Below are positions 4,301 to 57,289 of a stretch of 64,000 bases of DNA, piece by piece. Origin of the DNA: Sideroxydans lithotrophicus ES-1 (GTDB lineage Bacteria > Pseudomonadota > Gammaproteobacteria > Burkholderiales > Gallionellaceae). The first letter of the stretch is position 1, and every line of letters starts with the position of its first letter. The stretch spans positions 2,116,001-2,180,000 of the forward strand of contig NC_013959.1 in assembly GCF_000025705.1 (NCBI RefSeq), in the 5' to 3' direction. The position numbers and the translations under genes were made by a program. The notes under the pieces are model-generated. The model saw only the letters and a program-made list of their open reading frames with translations. It had not been told where the DNA came from and searched no databases.

Positions 4301-5180
4301 ACAGTCGCGCCCGCACTCCCGCCAGGGCGACGTCAGCATCCACACTGCTCAATTGTCCCTGCTCGAAGCCCAGCCACATCCGCAACGCGCCCTTGCCATG
4401 CTTGAATGCGTTCGGCAGCGACACCCAGGGTTTCCATGCCAGCACGTCGGCATAGTCGAGCTGGGTGTAGAGCTGTCCGCGCCAGTCGCTCATGTCGGTG
4501 AAACTGTCGCCGTAGAAATTCCCGCGCACATCCAGTCGGGAAGCCAGCCTTTCCGGCGCCGAAGCAAGCACCGCGAAACGATGGCGCCCGAACCGGTTGT
4601 CGATGCTCAGGTCCACATGTTCCAGTGCCAATAGCGGCGCGCCACGCAAGTCGTCCTGCCAGGTAATGCGTCCGTCGCGAATGACCACATTGGATTGGTG
4701 CAGCAACCAATCTGCGCTATCCGGCCCCTCGGCAGATTGTCCTTCAAGGGGGATGCCAGCCACGAACCAGTGCCCCTGCGCATCGCGCCGCACCGACAGG
4801 TCGGGACTGTCGATCTCCAGTCGTTGAAAGCGCAGTTCCGCCGTGAACAGGCTGGTCCATGCCACGGTATTCTCCAGGCGCGGCAAACTCAGCGCGACAT
4901 GGCCCTGTTTATCCAGTATCTGCACCTCGGACAACAACAGACGCGGACGCAAACCATCCCAATCCGCCTCTATCCTTCCTATGTGCAGCGGTTGACCGAT
5001 GGCGACGCTCGCCGCGGCGGTGATCTGTTCGTGATAGCGTTCGATGTCCGGCAATATGCGATAACGCAAGGTCAGCAGCACCAGCGCGCCGGCGATCGCC
5101 AACAGCAAGGAGATTTCCAGCGCGATGCGGGTCAACGTCCCCATTCCGCGCCAGGCCAGAAGAAGGGAGTTTTTCAGCAT
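1359..5180 (-). CDS. yhdP: YhdP family AsmA-like envelope protein
   Basis: A 1273-residue protein with one N-terminal transmembrane segment (about residues 17-40) followed by a very long, beta-rich periplasmic region with many repeated strand units. This is the architecture of YhdP, which with TamB and YdbH is thought to bridge the inner and outer membranes for phospholipid transport. The length is close to the E. coli homologue (about 1266). N-terminal features such as IGRIEADWDGLRPRL and the C-terminal AAGPVVGMGVLLANKLL region fit the family. It is the first gene of the operon with the amidase and tldD, and is divergent from glnE across about 100 bases. The function is from the family. Confidence 0.92.
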   Translation of the reverse strand: MLKNSLLLAWRGMGTLTRIALEISLLLAIAGALVLLTLRYRILPDIERYHEQITAAASVAIGQPLHIGRIEADWDGLRPRLLLSEVQILDKQGHVALSLPRLENTVAWTSLFTAELRFQRLEIDSPDLSVRRDAQGHWFVAGIPLEGQSAEGPDSADWLLHQSNVVIRDGRITWQDDLRGAPLLALEHVDLSIDNRFGRHRFAVLASAPERLASRLDVRGNFYGDSFTDMSDWRGQLYTQLDYADVLAWKPWVSLPNAFKHGKGALRMWLGFEQGQLSSVDADVALAGVRARLSEELPQLDLKEMRGRIGWHQLERGFEVNTQRLALKMRDGFELKPTDFYLRLMSGPEGSQQSSGEIRANALRLGGFVRMMDYLPLNKEIKERWIGAQPRGQIDDLQAQWQGSIDNITRYEIRARFDGLSMRRVGGLPGFSGLSGEVDGADSGGLLTIDSRKLSLDVPQLFAEPVEFDKLAARLGWQRNAQGLEIKLNNVVLSNADLAGTIYGSYQTERDGPGSIDATVDMTRVAVQRTGRYTPLPAVNKATHDWLQAALQGGQADKFRVRLRGDLRDFPFVGNKRGIFKLEARAKDVEMEFAKGWPRIEDAQTDLLIEGNKLEIKAATATTAGAHLQNIKVSIPDLLANNLLLQVRGEAADATQRCLDYIGKSPVNGYLDGFTEGIKASGDGRLGLQLDIPLDSDEPVKVRGDYHFANNDIDLDKNVPVLRKVNGVLLFTESSVNAGDISAQILGGAAHLMVASQNGALMTKAYGKFDLDNLNAVTPQPLLRRVHGGADWNADIRVQNKQADVTLDSDLQGVTSDLPEPFNKRAGERVPFHFEQKSIGSRQDMLGLSVGTLVDARLARQLGKDGTWNIRRGRIALGGSAAKGGREGIWVVGRLPHVSIEGWSGLGFASNGGELPNIAGIDVTVDKLTGYGNTVNALDINGSGRNGLLSLRLASRELNGDVIWQPQGNGKLLGRFKNAMLGEGHFDSAPTVPEVLARSGPPDNSSFPEVDVAVDKLVYKGRHLGKLEMNMSESDGDVLLDNLQLVNPDGVLSMSGKWQAKPEQTQVKLRVDISDAGKILSRSGYPESLKDGSGSLQSDLHWAGAPDTFAYSKLNGEIHLNVGKGRFLKVDPGAAKLLGVLSLQSIPKRITLDFTDVFSGGFQFDSITGNAQIVNGLLLTNDMKLTGAAAKVTMAGQVDINHETQDLKVRVLPTIGDNVSLLSFAAGPVVGMGVLLANKLLRDPLDKLVSFEYNVSGSWVDPKVEKVGQPKSP

Positions 5181-5232
5181 TGTGTGCGGGATGACAGCAT
5201 GAAGAAATGAGACCGGCAGTGCATGGAGAACC

Positions 5233-5238
5233 TATAAT
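5233..5238 (+). promoter_or_regulatory. Candidate -10 box for glnE
   Basis: A perfect TATAAT lies in the divergent yhdP/glnE spacer, 47 bases before the glnE start. The upstream region at 16-18 bases has only weak similarity to a -35 box, so the promoter may need an activator or may be weak. Confidence 0.45.
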
Positions 5239-5284
5239 GCAACGAAGAAGGACAGTGAGCATATTTTAACCCGAAGCCCCCCGC

Positions 5285-8038
5285 ATGAATACCGAAAACC
5301 CTCGCCCCGCAACCGATTTCGACGGACTGGTACGGCACGCCAGATATTGCAGCCGCTATCTCGCCCGGCTGCTGGATGCCGAGCCGGAACTGCTGGGCTG
5401 GTTGCGTGCACATCTTCTCACCCCGTGCAGCGCCGGGGTGGTGCACTCCTGGTCGGACGAGCTTCCGGCCGACAACGAGGAGCAGCTGTCACGCGCGCTA
5501 CGCCAGCTGCGCAAACGCGTCATGCTGCATGTACTGACCCGCGACCTGAACGGATTGGCCGACCTCGGCGAAGTGATGCGCAGCATGACCACCCTGGCCG
5601 AACTGGCCGTACGCCGTGCGCAAACACTCATCATGCAAAACATGGTCGAACAATTCGGGCACCCCATAGGCAAGGAGAACGGAGCTCGTCAGGAACTGCT
5701 GGTGATCGGCATGGGCAAGCTGGGCGGCGGCGAGTTGAACGTCTCTTCGGACATCGACCTGATCTTCGTCTATCCCGAAGACGGGGAGACCAGCGGCGCA
5801 CGCGGCTTGTCCAACCACGAATTCTTCAACCGTCTCGGGCGTAGAACGATCGCCCTCATCAACGACCTGACCGCCGATGGTTACGTGTTCCGCGTCGATA
5901 TGCGCCTGCGTCCTTACGGCGACAGCGGCCCGCTGACCATGAGCTTCGCCGCGCTGGAAGAATATCTGGTATCGCAGGGACGCGAATGGGAGCGTTATGC
6001 CTGGATAAAGGCCCGCGTCATTTCGCCGGAAAACAGCCCGCATACCGCCGAGTTGGAAAAACTCGTGCAGCCGTTCGTATTCCGCAAATACCTGGATTTC
6101 GGCTCGTTCGATTCCATGCGCAAGCTGCATGCGCAGATTCGCGCCGAAGTCGCCCGCCGCGACCGGCATCACAACATCAAGCTCGGCCGCGGCGGCATCC
6201 GCGAGATCGAATTCATCGCACAGGTGTTCCAGCTGATACGCGGGGGTCGCGATGCCCGCCTGCGTATCCGCCCCACACAACAGGTATTACAGCAACTGGC
6301 GCATGACGGGGAACTTGCCGCAGATGTGGTAGCCCGACTGGATAACAGCTATGTCTTCCTGCGCAACCTCGAGCACCGTTTGCAATATCTCGACGACCAG
6401 CAGACCCAGGAGCTGCCGGAAAACGTCGAACAGCGATCCATCATCGCCGAAGCAATGGGATATGCCGACTATGACGCCTTGCTTGCCGCATTGTTTCCAC
6501 TGCGTGAGTTCGTCAGCCAGCAATTCGAGACCGTGTTCGGGGCCAAGCAGGAAAGCGTTGACAACACCTGGTGGCGAGACGATGCCACAACAGGAGAATT
6601 CGATAGGGCGCTTGCTGCGCTCGGTTATGGCGAGAGCGGCCTGCTCGCCGAAAATCTGCTGCAGTTCCGCAACGGCAGCCGCTACCAGCAATTGCCGGAG
6701 TTCAGCCGCCAACGGCTGGACAAGCTGGTACCACGACTGGCAGAACTCTGCACAGAGACTTCCAATCCGGACAAGGCGTTGCATCGCACACTTGTCTTGC
6801 TGGAAGCGATCGCACGCCGCGCCGCCTACCTGGCTTTCCTTGCCGAATATCCGCAGGCATTGCCGCGCCTGGTCCGGCTGCTATCTGCCAGCGCCTGGGC
6901 GGGCGATTATCTGACCCAGCACCCCATCCTGCTCGACGAACTGCTGGACACACGCGAACTGTATGTCGCGCCGGACTGGCCCGAACTCGATGCGAGGCTG
7001 ACGTCGCAACTTGCCGCACATGCCGGCGATACCGAGCGGGAAATGGACACGCTGCGCCAGTTCCAGCAGGCGCAGACTTTCCAGCTGCTGGCAATGGACC
7101 TGCAGGGCCTTTTGCCGCTGGAAAGACTGAGCGACCACCTGAGCGACCTCGCCGATCTGCTACTCCGCCATGTGCTGCGCCTGTGCTGGCGCGATGCGCG
7201 CAAAAAACACCGCGAGCAGCCGCACTTCGCCAGTGACAATTTCGCATCCAGCTCGCTGGATAGCGAATTGCCTGCCTTTGGTATCATCGCCTATGGCAAG
7301 CTGGGCGGACGCGAACTGGGTTACGCCTCAGACCTCGACCTGGTATTCCTCTATGACGATGATCATCCCGATGCCGGCGAGGTCTATGCCCGCCTGGCAC
7401 AACGCATCAACACCATGCTTTCCAGCTACACCTCTTCCGGCCGCCTGTACGAAGTCGATCTGCGCCTGCGACCGAACGGCGAGAGCGGATTGCTGGTCAG
7501 TTCGATCGCCGCATTCGAGGAGTATCAGCGCAACAATGCATGGGTATGGGAACACCAGGCTCTGACACGGGCCCGCTTTTGCGCAGGAGATGAGTCTGTT
7601 GGCGTGCAGTTCGAGCGCATCCGCAACGAAGTTCTGCGCATGCCGCGCGACATTGCCAGGCTACGCCAAGATGTCATCGAAATGCGCCGGAAGATGCACG
7701 ACGGCCATCCCAACAAAACATCGCTGTTCGACATCAAACAGGACGGCGGCGGCATGGTGGACATCGAGTTCATGGTGCAATTCATCGTGCTCGCTCACGC
7801 CGCAGTCCACCCGGAGCTCACGGCAAACAGCGGCAACCTGGCGCTTCTGGACATGGCAGCGAAGCTGGAGCTGATCGATGGCGGACTCAGCAGCCAGGTG
7901 CGCGAGTTGTACCGGGAGCTGCGCCGCATCCAGCATCAGATGCGCCTGAACAATCAGGAGCCCTGCCGCATCGAGCGGGGCCTCATGGACATTACGCCCG
8001 TAACAGAGTTGTGGAAATCGCTGCTGGACGGAACCTAG
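5285..8038 (+). CDS. glnE: Bifunctional glutamine synthetase adenylyltransferase/adenylyl-removing enzyme
   Basis: A 917-residue protein (E. coli GlnE is 946) with two nucleotidyltransferase domains. The N-terminal deadenylylase motif GMGKLGGGELN followed by SDIDLIFVY is near residues 142-165; the C-terminal adenylyltransferase motif AYGKLGGREL followed by SDLDLVFLYDDD is near 667-692. Each is followed by an RLRP(Y/N)G motif. The enzyme attaches or removes AMP on glutamine synthetase in response to PII and glutamine, so it sets nitrogen assimilation. The gene stands alone on the plus strand, and its stop shares the bases CTAG with the stop of the convergent cyclase gene. Confidence 0.96.
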   Translation: MNTENPRPATDFDGLVRHARYCSRYLARLLDAEPELLGWLRAHLLTPCSAGVVHSWSDELPADNEEQLSRALRQLRKRVMLHVLTRDLNGLADLGEVMRSMTTLAELAVRRAQTLIMQNMVEQFGHPIGKENGARQELLVIGMGKLGGGELNVSSDIDLIFVYPEDGETSGARGLSNHEFFNRLGRRTIALINDLTADGYVFRVDMRLRPYGDSGPLTMSFAALEEYLVSQGREWERYAWIKARVISPENSPHTAELEKLVQPFVFRKYLDFGSFDSMRKLHAQIRAEVARRDRHHNIKLGRGGIREIEFIAQVFQLIRGGRDARLRIRPTQQVLQQLAHDGELAADVVARLDNSYVFLRNLEHRLQYLDDQQTQELPENVEQRSIIAEAMGYADYDALLAALFPLREFVSQQFETVFGAKQESVDNTWWRDDATTGEFDRALAALGYGESGLLAENLLQFRNGSRYQQLPEFSRQRLDKLVPRLAELCTETSNPDKALHRTLVLLEAIARRAAYLAFLAEYPQALPRLVRLLSASAWAGDYLTQHPILLDELLDTRELYVAPDWPELDARLTSQLAAHAGDTEREMDTLRQFQQAQTFQLLAMDLQGLLPLERLSDHLSDLADLLLRHVLRLCWRDARKKHREQPHFASDNFASSSLDSELPAFGIIAYGKLGGRELGYASDLDLVFLYDDDHPDAGEVYARLAQRINTMLSSYTSSGRLYEVDLRLRPNGESGLLVSSIAAFEEYQRNNAWVWEHQALTRARFCAGDESVGVQFERIRNEVLRMPRDIARLRQDVIEMRRKMHDGHPNKTSLFDIKQDGGGMVDIEFMVQFIVLAHAAVHPELTANSGNLALLDMAAKLELIDGGLSSQVRELYRELRRIQHQMRLNNQEPCRIERGLMDITPVTELWKSLLDGT

Positions 8039-54800: not shown

Positions 54801-55862
54801 TCAATATTTGACTGGCACCCGCGCCGTCAGCGCGCACATCAACTCGTAACTGATGGTTCCTGCCGACTTCGCCACCTCTTCCACCGACAATCCGGTGCCC
54901 CACAAGGTGACGGGACTGCCGATATCGGCATCCGGTATCTCGCTCAGGTCGACACTCAGCATATCCATCGAGACGCGCCCCAGTGTGCGGGTGCGCTGTC
55001 CGTTCACCTGGATCGGCGTGCCGGTCGGCGCATGGCGCGGATAGCCGTCGGCATAACCGCAGGCCACCGTGCCGATACGCATCGTCTTGTCGGCACGGAA
55101 CAGCCCGGCATAGCCGACGCGGTCGCCCGCCTTCAGTTCGCGCACCGAGATGATCTCGCTGGTCAAGGTCATCACCGGACGCAAGCCGAGCTGCTGAGCG
55201 CTGGCATCGGCGAACGGCGATGCGCCGTAAAGCATGATGCCGGGCCGCACCCATTCGCTGTGCGTGGACGGATAGCGTAACAGTGCAGCGGAATTGGCCA
55301 GCGAACGCGGCAAGCGATAAGCGGCGGTCAATCCCTTGAAGAGTTCGAGTTGCTCGGCGACACCTTCCGGCTCGTCGGCATGGGAGAAGTGCGTCATCAG
55401 GGTGATGTCGCGTACCGCCGGGTGCTTGCGCAATTTCTCCATCGCTGCGGGAACCTGTTCCGGCGCGAAGCCCAGGCGGTTCATGCCGGTGTTGATCTTG
55501 AGCCACACCTCCAGCGAGTTGCGGCGCGGGCAGGCATCGAGCATGGCCAGCTGCCGGGTGCTGTGGATGACGCTGCCCAGTTCGTATTCGGCCAGCAGCG
55601 GCAATTCTTCCGCGTCGAAAAAGCCTTCCAGCAGCAGGATGGTCTGGCGAAAACCGGCCTCGCGCAGGGCGATGGCATCGCGCACATCGAGCAATGCGAA
55701 CCCTTCCGCCTCATTCAATGCCTCGGCCACACGCAGCAAACCATGCCCGTAGGCGTTCGCCTTGATGACCGCCATGATGCGGCTGGATGCTGTGCGGCGC
55801 GCCACGCGCAGATTGTTCTGCAGGGCGGAAAGGTCGATGTGAGCTTGTATCGGGCGGGACAT
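54801..55862 (-). CDS. alr: Alanine racemase
   Basis: A 353-residue PLP enzyme making D-alanine for peptidoglycan. K34 in VIKANAYGHG binds PLP; the catalytic Tyr is in DRVGYAGLF; LGRVSMDML is a further signature. It is divergent from lplT across about 200 bases. Alanine dehydrogenase lies about 5 kb away, so both D- and L-alanine supply genes are in the window. Confidence 0.96.
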   Translation of the reverse strand: MSRPIQAHIDLSALQNNLRVARRTASSRIMAVIKANAYGHGLLRVAEALNEAEGFALLDVRDAIALREAGFRQTILLLEGFFDAEELPLLAEYELGSVIHSTRQLAMLDACPRRNSLEVWLKINTGMNRLGFAPEQVPAAMEKLRKHPAVRDITLMTHFSHADEPEGVAEQLELFKGLTAAYRLPRSLANSAALLRYPSTHSEWVRPGIMLYGASPFADASAQQLGLRPVMTLTSEIISVRELKAGDRVGYAGLFRADKTMRIGTVACGYADGYPRHAPTGTPIQVNGQRTRTLGRVSMDMLSVDLSEIPDADIGSPVTLWGTGLSVEEVAKSAGTISYELMCALTARVPVKY

Positions 55863-55955
55863 GAGTGAAGGCAGGAGCGGTTAAACTGCCGCGAATGATA
55901 GCAGGCCTCATATTTTCGTGTTATAAAAGACCGGTCCTCCCAAAAAGAATCTATA

Positions 55956-56066
55956 GTGAATCGCGGTTTTTACACCATCCTGATAGCGCAGTTCTTTTGG
56001 CTACGGCCAGACAATGAACCCGTCTTTAACGTGCTGTGCACATTAGCCTCCGCCGAAAGAACATGA
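55956..56066 (+). CDS. Short upstream ORF containing a diverged copy of the lplT 5' end
   Basis: A 36-codon frame starting with GTG. Its first 14 residues after the start correspond to LplT (NRGFYTILIAQFF), then unrelated sequence to a TGA that overlaps the lplT ATG (ATGA at 56063-56066). The copy (55956-55998) differs from lplT (56063-56105) at 6 of 43 positions; five are third codon positions and synonymous, the other is the start base. This implies a diverged homologous lplT, not a recent simple duplication. It may be a recombination remnant or now a leader peptide. No other match was seen. Confidence 0.5.
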   Translation: MNRGFYTILIAQFFWLRPDNEPVFNVLCTLASAERT

Positions 56067-57289
56067 ATCGAGGCTTCTACACAATTCTGATAGCGCAGTT
56101 CTTTTCCGCGCTCGCTGACAACGCTCTGCTGTTCGCCGCCATCGCCCTGTTGAAGCAGGTGCATGCGCCAAGCTGGCACACGCCTGTCCTGCAGCAGGCA
56201 TTCATCATCTCGTTCGTCATTCTCGCCCCCTTTGTCGGTGCGTTCGCCGACTCGCTGCCCAAGGGTCGCGTGATGTTCATCAGCAACGCGATCAAGATGG
56301 TGGGCTGCATCGCCATGCTGGTCGGCATCAATCCGCTGCTGGCCTACGGCCTGGCCGGCTTCGGCGCGGCAGCATATTCGCCGGCCAAATACGGCATCCT
56401 CACCGAATACCTGCCGCCGGAAAGACTGGTGTGGGCGAACAGCTGGATGGAAGGCCTGACGGTCAGCGCCATCATCCTGGGCGCAGTGATCGGCGGCATG
56501 CTCATCACGCCCAGTATCGCCACAGCGATCCTGCAGGACTTGCATGTGCCGATGGTGGTGACCCCGGCAGAACTGGCCATCTTCATCATTTTCTTCATGT
56601 ATCTTGTTGCGGCACTGTTCAACCTGTACATCCCGCTGGTACCCATCGAACACAAACCGTTCAGCCGCAGTCCGCTGTTCCTGCTCAAGGACTTCTGGCA
56701 TTGCTTCACGCTGCTGTGGAAGGACCCGCTGGGACAGGTCTCGCTGGCTGTCACCACGCTGTTCTGGGGTGCGGGTGCGACGTTGCGTCTGCTGGTGCTG
56801 TCGTGGGCGGCTGTGGCGCTGCATTACAGCATGGGCGAAGCGGCCAAGCTGATCGCCTGGTTCGCCGTCGGCATTGCCATCGGCGCCGTGATGGCAGCGC
56901 GTCTGGTCAAACTCGAACACGCGGTGAACGTGCTGCCGGTAGGCATCGGCATGGGATTGCTGGTGCTGGTGATGATCCCGATCACCAACCCGCTGCTCGC
57001 CATCCTGCTGCTCATCAGCATCGGCATGATGGCCGGTTTCTTCGTGGTGCCGATGAACGCCCTGCTGCAGCACCGCGGACACTTGCTGATCGGCGCAGGC
57101 CGCTCCATCGCCGTGCAGAACTTCAACGAGAACATCAGCATCTTCCTCATGCTGGGACTCTATGCGCTGATGGAAAAACTCGAGCTCCATCTCAACCTCA
57201 TCATTCTCGTGTTCGGCCTGCTGATGGCCGGCCTCATGGGTCTGCTGTACAAGAAACACGGCCACGACCAGGATAACGGCAGAATTTGA
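56063..57289 (+). CDS. lplT: Lysophospholipid transporter LplT
   Basis: A 408-residue MFS-type inner-membrane flippase (E. coli 397) with about 12 helices that returns lysophospholipids from the outer leaflet for reacylation. NRGFYTILIAQFFSALADN at the N-terminus, SLPKGRVMFISNAIK and YSPAKYGILTEYLPPERLV are typical. The acyltransferase Aas, often fused or adjacent elsewhere, is absent. It is followed by a small membrane peptide and a lipase-like lipoprotein. A duplicate of its 5' end lies just upstream. Confidence 0.93.
   Translation: MNRGFYTILIAQFFSALADNALLFAAIALLKQVHAPSWHTPVLQQAFIISFVILAPFVGAFADSLPKGRVMFISNAIKMVGCIAMLVGINPLLAYGLAGFGAAAYSPAKYGILTEYLPPERLVWANSWMEGLTVSAIILGAVIGGMLITPSIATAILQDLHVPMVVTPAELAIFIIFFMYLVAALFNLYIPLVPIEHKPFSRSPLFLLKDFWHCFTLLWKDPLGQVSLAVTTLFWGAGATLRLLVLSWAAVALHYSMGEAAKLIAWFAVGIAIGAVMAARLVKLEHAVNVLPVGIGMGLLVLVMIPITNPLLAILLLISIGMMAGFFVVPMNALLQHRGHLLIGAGRSIAVQNFNENISIFLMLGLYALMEKLELHLNLIILVFGLLMAGLMGLLYKKHGHDQDNGRI

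Follow-up and report, generated by a model that had tools for sequence, protein, structure and literature searches.

A dispersed structured element at the start of lplT in Sideroxydans lithotrophicus ES-1 is probably a site-guided insertion that supplies its target gene with a new end

Insertion sequences of the IS200/IS605 group combine a hairpin with a guide of about 4 nt that base-pairs with the cleavage sites, and they insert 3' of a short target. Integron attC sites carry the outer boxes RYYYAAC ... GTTRRRY and, when folded, present stems, an unpaired spacer, an extrahelical base, and variable terminal hairpins. Mobile ORFs of fungal mitochondria carry the C-terminus of a gene and encode homing endonucleases. 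MITEs and the palindromic elements of Rickettsia are short palindromes that insert within genes or close to them, and some are read in frame. The REPs mobilised by RAYTs are short dispersed palindromes, often near coding regions, that are non-autonomous (PMC3733652).

The start of lplT in S. lithotrophicus ES-1 occurs twice in the DNA analysed here (the window: 64,000 nucleotides, numbered from its first base). The gene downstream was identified as LplT by model NF008397 (580.6 bits; cut-off 297), and a direct-repeat scan of 55700-56400 reported the lplT-start repeat, at 42 nt and 88%, as the sole direct-repeat family there. The best explanation, to which we attach a probability of roughly 0.8, is that a site-guided, gene-end-restoring structured mini-element inserted in lplT and displaced its native start. 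The features, all on the + strand, are as follows.

55956..55998, +: displaced, probably native lplT 5' end (GTG, codons 1-14), the left copy; GTG as in 23/23 element-free loci of the same genus
55956..56066, +: upstream ORF, 36 codons, with a TGA overlapping the lplT ATG
55991..55998, +: left target arm t (GTTCTTTT), with the insertion point after 55998 (T/GG)
55999..56055, +: conserved structured core, GG..CCG, matched by both covariance models (R1, at 95.3 bits, and R2)
55999..56105, +: 107-bp unit, consisting of core, right arm, gene start, and t
56056..56062, +: right arm, the reverse complement of target t in the intact gene, read from the sequence and following the same rule at other sites
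56063..56105, +: working, probably imported lplT 5' end, with target t at 56098-56105 and junction T/C
56063..57289, +: lplT, intact

A sequence-only reading of the window had noted the 43-base repeat of lplT codons 1-14, and it is real: the copies are identical at 37/43 positions, with mismatches at positions 1 (GTG/ATG), 9, 12, 15, 21, and 24, the last five of which are synonymous. That reading derived the copy from a diverged lplT allele, and the two copies do look like diverged alleles over at least the first 24 bases; the last 19 are the same in both. Its 36-codon upstream frame is likewise as described, the TGA (56064-56066) overlapping the ATG as ATGA. The 22 codons it called unrelated arise where the frame reads through a dispersed structured element. 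An assembly error is an unlikely source of the repeat because the genome is a single contig and the same arrangement is found in other assemblies. A second diverged lplT in the ES-1 genome was rejected as the source, there being only one DNA match. A further LplT-like transporter is encoded at G000:C1:468984-470111 of that genome; at 43% identity it was judged too distant to be the source. Chance was rejected as well.

The 64 bp separating the two lplT starts are one of about 16 ES-1 copies of the element, whose core consensus, with some variation, is TGG[CT]TNCGRC, one or two variable hairpins, and GYCTNCNCCG; the core is laid out as a 3x3 internal loop (TNC/TNC) and two variable hairpins. 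Other Gallionellaceae have the same start type and a similar stretch of 64-70 bp before lplT, some with two or three units, of the kind seen at 55999..56105, in tandem. The majority of relatives have an lplT with a plain promoter and start and no element. A pattern taken from the right end of the stretch matched in 12/100 genomes, at some genes besides lplT, but a strict pattern run over the order matched in only 3/399, a low yield because the pattern was strict and the sample contained only 13 genomes of the ES-1 family. Covariance model R1 found copies in 59/91 genomes, ES-1 included, in a sample weighted toward the ES-1 genus and family: 48/55 within the family and 11/36 in other families of the order, with up to 17 copies per genome. 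ES-1 itself has 12 copies at E<=0.01 with R1; a second model, R2, for which 89 copies were used, finds 16 there at E<=1e-4. In a class-wide set of 185 genomes, R2 matched in ES-1 only (1/185), and one core had no match in E. coli. The literature searched, mainly open-access, yielded no description of the element.

This dispersal bears directly on the idea, also from the sequence-only reading, that the repeat is a lone scar, left by recombination with a diverged lplT allele and now perhaps serving as a leader. The silent-site divergence between the copies speaks for it, but a core that is shared with many unrelated genes and spread through 59 of the 91 genomes refutes it as a complete account, and we give it next to no weight. 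The short upstream ORF and its repeat are best read as the site where a dispersed structured element inserted.

A MAFFT alignment of 24 copies supports a 25-pair structure with a covariation score of 0.171, versus 0.104 when shuffled, and in an alignment of 89 copies fitted to the structure model the score rises to 0.437, versus 0.126 shuffled and <=0.071 slid. Cells changed on both sides of a pair number 413 in the 89 copies, as opposed to 136 in shuffles; the count of further pair types did not exceed shuffles in either the 24- or the 89-copy alignment. (The curated core alignment leaves out one copy, at L113.) As single-stranded DNA the element folds modestly better than shuffles (z -2.7 and -3.0 for the two strands). 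The RNA of the whole lplT leader folds no better than shuffles (z -0.08), and the modelling does not support an RNA structure that regulates lplT. A described RNA family was rejected as the identity of the element: at the lplT site no Rfam family matched even with E as high as 5, and the seven matches at a second site were all well under their gathering scores.

The targeting rules were read from 75 sites outside lplT (35 loci and 40 further sites, best-scoring places only), several of which are the same gene in different species and thus not independent; the mismatched controls include such pairs. Genes bearing the element outside lplT are presumably nrdB, murG, nuoD, and serS, among others; except for lplT, alr, and the phage genes of L245, site gene names were read from translated ends. 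In 53/75 sites the right arm is complementary over more than 6 nt (7-19 nt) to a target within 260 bases downstream, 6 nt being the 95th percentile of 1851 mismatched site pairs. The left flank is repeated downstream above the 95th control percentile (15) at 49/75 sites and above the 99th (28) at 26/75; 22/75 sites thus fail the arm test and 26/75 the repeat test. Targets usually lie within an intact gene, and the direct repeat is typically the duplicated gene end. Among the 53 arm-positive sites the target ends in TTTT in 30 and in TTGT in 18, and a C comes next at 49/53 junctions. Arms pair better with the right-hand target than with the displaced left one, the pairing being longer in 39, equal in 13, and shorter in one (medians 11 and 4 nt, respectively).

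Gene ends were scored at 51 of the 53 sites, two being omitted for too little downstream sequence. At 42/51, a stop codon on the opposite strand falls between core and junction and is followed by at least 100 further open codons, versus 10% of 2040 random intervals and 12/52 mirror intervals left of the core; start codons in the same interval were not enriched (13/51 versus a 22% control). Because arms follow targets, flanks repeat, and gene stops fall between core and junction, the sites appear to share one layout: a displaced gene end with its target, the core, then the arm and a gene end with its target, and finally the rest of the intact gene. Units read across sites span roughly 80-180 bp, and the duplicated stretches vary widely in length; by eye, the duplicate ends at the stop codon of the gene at L207 but not at L230 or L231. 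Cores at lplT form one close set of constant length, whereas those elsewhere run from 38 to 61 bases.

Some individual sites deserve mention. Five near-identical tandem units, about 145 bp apart, lie at the 3' end of a gene in L176 (G056:C1:1733000-1744000, positions 4656-5303) that we take to be GTP cyclohydrolase FolE2. At the gene ends of L159, L161, L153, L148, and L212, arm and target form a near-perfect hairpin of 16-18 bp with a short loop, leaving little space between them for a gene-end duplicate. One ES-1 copy (L170, G000:C1:2610188-2610251) adjoins a duplicated piece, presumably the 5' part of a tRNA-Ser gene.

Judged by sequence, the element resembles a REP, an IS200/IS605 element, or an integron cassette in parts but lacks tested hallmarks of REPs, MITEs, and attC sites. 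Like REPs, it is short, dispersed, palindromic, and often adjoins coding regions; unlike them, it has no conserved GTAG at the hairpin foot (the bottom strand reads GNAG, with N variable), it has locus-specific arms and a gene end, and its copies do not follow Y1 (HUH) transposases. With IS200/IS605 it shares a hairpin, a candidate pairing guide, and insertion 3' of a short target, but its arm is 7-19 nt and different at each locus, the gene end belongs to the unit, and no transposase was found alongside. Fungal mitochondrial mobile ORFs similarly restore the end of the entered gene and displace the old one, but they code for endonucleases, in contrast to units of this small size. As with MITEs and Rickettsia palindromic elements, the insertion is short, palindromic, in or near genes, and sometimes read in frame; however, no terminal inverted repeats are common to all copies (arms are locus-specific, and the inner bases in common are only TGG/CCG and the neighboring T/A), there is no fixed short target duplication, and a gene end is supplied.

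The likeness to integrons goes further in the fold. According to predicted folds and covariation, a single strand of the element would form a stem, a 3x3 unpaired spacer, a second stem, a bulged base, and variable hairpins, much as attC does, and its tandem units with cargo recall cassettes. An integron-like cassette, with the core as a folded attC-like site, the gene end as cargo, and an integron integrase to move both, would make sense of these features. The outer arms of the element are variable rather than RYYYAAC..GTTRRRY boxes, with a GTT..AAC polarity at lplT, and the cargo is a piece of the target gene. Nor was there an association with integrase in the 28 genomes sampled: 9/14 bearing and 6/14 free genomes were over the cut-off, so that co-occurrence does not single out the integron integrase, and the best element match at 10 integrase loci scored only 12.9 bits (E 0.97). 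We therefore consider the cassette explanation quite improbable. ES-1 does encode a full-length integron integrase (G000:C1:388278-389222, TIGR02249, 502 bits).

The history of the insertion at lplT can be approached through its relatives. Taking loci at least 68% identical to the ES-1 protein over nearly full length and merging identical genes (96 to 59), the element was present at 15/59 distinct lplT loci, in a scattered fashion; L114, with a truncated lplT, is outside this set. On an lplT tree built with the first 60 bases removed, whose bootstrap is not fully settled, 13 gains or losses are needed, eight of them forced by well supported branches, and the element label is as scattered as shuffled labels (13 versus a mean of 13.4). 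The two nearest relatives (L003 and L004) have no element.

Start codons differ between the two copies in a consistent manner. GTG is the start at 23/23 element-free lplT loci of the same genus, and in the bearers of that genus the left copy has GTG in 5/5 and the right copy ATG in 5/5. The copy upstream thus looks like the displaced native lplT start, and the direction given in the sequence-only reading, which derived it from a diverged allele, was probably reversed. At the 14 loci scored, the left copy is the better match to the nearest element-free relative in eight and the right copy in four, with two ties; L013 was scored separately, and L060, whose left copy is lost to a contig end, enters no left-copy count. 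Because GTG is found in element-free loci and left copies and ATG in right copies, import by the element is the probable origin of the working ATG start, but GTG could also have changed to ATG under selection after insertion. Part of the working start in ES-1 looks like a local copy instead, since the 19 bases shared by both copies include an ATA at codon 10 that is absent from the other loci compared.

An ordinary non-autonomous transposon, MITE- or REP-like, might produce much of this if a long target-site duplication rescued gene ends and arm complementarity arose later. The orientation of the element fits such a rescue, with a right-hand gene stop in those 42/51 sites and restored starts at lplT and the murG- and nuoD-like sites, and so does the unusual ATA codon in the last 19 bases of both ES-1 copies. 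It fits less well that the duplicated stretches are very unequal in length, that some stop at the stop codon of the gene (L207) and others do not (L230, L231), and that starts differ between left and right in all five bearers of one genus. In addition, the arm fits the target of the intact gene even where the left copy has diverged. We regard this explanation as unlikely.

Could the element instead be ancient, inherited vertically as a regulatory leader and lost often through recombination between direct repeats? Loss between 43-bp repeats would be mechanistically easy, and the scattered presence at lplT could be due in part to repeated loss; the close, constant-length set of lplT cores, versus 38 to 61 bases elsewhere, also favors inheritance. 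The higher R1 scores of lplT cores prove nothing because R1 was built mainly from them. Set against vertical inheritance are the 13 changes and a scatter like that of shuffled labels, a left start that is native-like and a right one that is non-native within the genus, and drift of the peptide. The sequence-only reading had reasoned that the same upstream ORF, if unchanged across many distant relatives, would indicate an ancient conserved leader; the outcome was mixed, in that an ORF-bearing element does recur, in 15/59 loci, but scattered and not unchanged. Vertical inheritance is, in our estimate, decidedly improbable.

What is kept at lplT is the upstream frame and its end, not its peptide, whose sequence drifts. 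In 20/21 lplT units the upstream frame closes precisely at the TGA of the following start; the units share descent, so they do not count as independent, and they span three lengths (107, 113, and 254), all 2 modulo 3, and the exception is one unit of 106 bases at L007. L013, scored separately, also ends exactly on the next start. Because frame and end are kept while the peptide drifts, translational coupling is indicated rather than a specific peptide: lplT is probably translated by coupling from the upstream ORF. The coupled leader suggested earlier therefore stands in respect of a frame that ends on the lplT start but not of a specific peptide. In L064 the lplT element contains a longer insert (1247-1500) that has inverted repeats of its own, yet the upstream frame runs uninterrupted through 85 codons up to the lplT ATG.

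The frame is also open through the core at other gene starts, at L228 and three further sites. At the murG-like L228 the frame closes a few codons into the restored gene, and at the nuoD-like sites, three in number, the first base of its stop lies 11 bases ahead of the restored start; L234, the fifth start site, has no frame that crosses the core. These positions suggest that genes tolerate an insertion at their start if ribosomes can move on to the restored one.

The element may also be carried by phages. In IMG/VR, 13 contigs have a strict match, and 13/13 also match R2, though some may be host flanks. In one of them (L245) the copy occupies the start of the gene for a major tail protein and lies downstream of that for a major head protein, so phages may act as carriers; the stop of the upstream frame overlaps the tail gene start as ATGA, as at lplT. 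At eight further phage contigs (L246-L250 and L253-L255) that stop starts 15 bases ahead of the restored gene start. The element in these eight is at the start of a gene with an N-terminus like that of the L245 tail protein. Named phage genomes were rejected as a vehicle: the 11 records obtained were all 25-base matches in Bacteroides phages (E 0.5). A plasmid vector was likewise rejected, one core having no match in a plasmid collection. The 107-bp unit matched pieces of 69 plasmid records, and among the matches listed (20 of the 69) nine were lplT starts and 11 were 28-base pieces in Acinetobacter.

Neither a transposase nor a recombinase was found alongside the element, and three candidate families do not track it. 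Besides the integron integrase, these are the Y1 transposase (PF01797), present in 38/59 bearing and 20/32 free genomes, and the reverse transcriptase (PF00078), in 9/17 bearing and 4/14 free; both were rejected on co-occurrence. PF01797 is absent from 21/59 bearing genomes, some of them incomplete but including G056, which is complete and has 14 copies, and G056 also has no PF00078 over the cut-off. The absence of a mobiliser today is weak evidence, since the copies may be fossil and not every genome is complete.

The reading we prefer, a site-guided insertion that restores the gene end, can be set out as a series of steps. A short structured mobile element would enter lplT after the T of GTTCTTTT, in codons 12-14, as a unit of conserved core, target-complementary right arm, and gene-end copy up to the target. 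Insertion would move the native start upstream, to 55956-55998, and supply the start now in use at 56063-56105; the LplT protein would be unchanged because the unit brings its own gene start. Translation would begin at the old GTG, pass through the element, and reach the new ATG by the ATGA overlap, so that coupling would drive lplT translation. For the movement itself, through cells or phages, we infer a single-strand reaction: the core would be recognised through its folded hairpin, and pairing by the arm would place the cleavage sites and so guide a recombination or transposition step; each of these steps is conjectural. Such a scheme would explain target-following arms, restored genes, tandem units, and the repeated occupation of one site.

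Whether this is a new kind of mobile DNA, non-coding, about 80-180 bp long, guided by its arm to one gene site and carrying the gene end, is a tentative proposal to which we give somewhat less than even odds. If it is true, such units can home repeatedly into conserved genes of cells and phages without killing them, and homing swaps the gene end of the recipient for that of the donor. The element as described here shows how an apparently mobile sequence can occupy conserved genes without disabling them, and perhaps transfer gene ends between species. The locus-matched arms make the targeting rule readable from sequence and open to direct testing, and the element accounts for oddities in the annotations of this order, namely partial gene duplications and short upstream ORFs.
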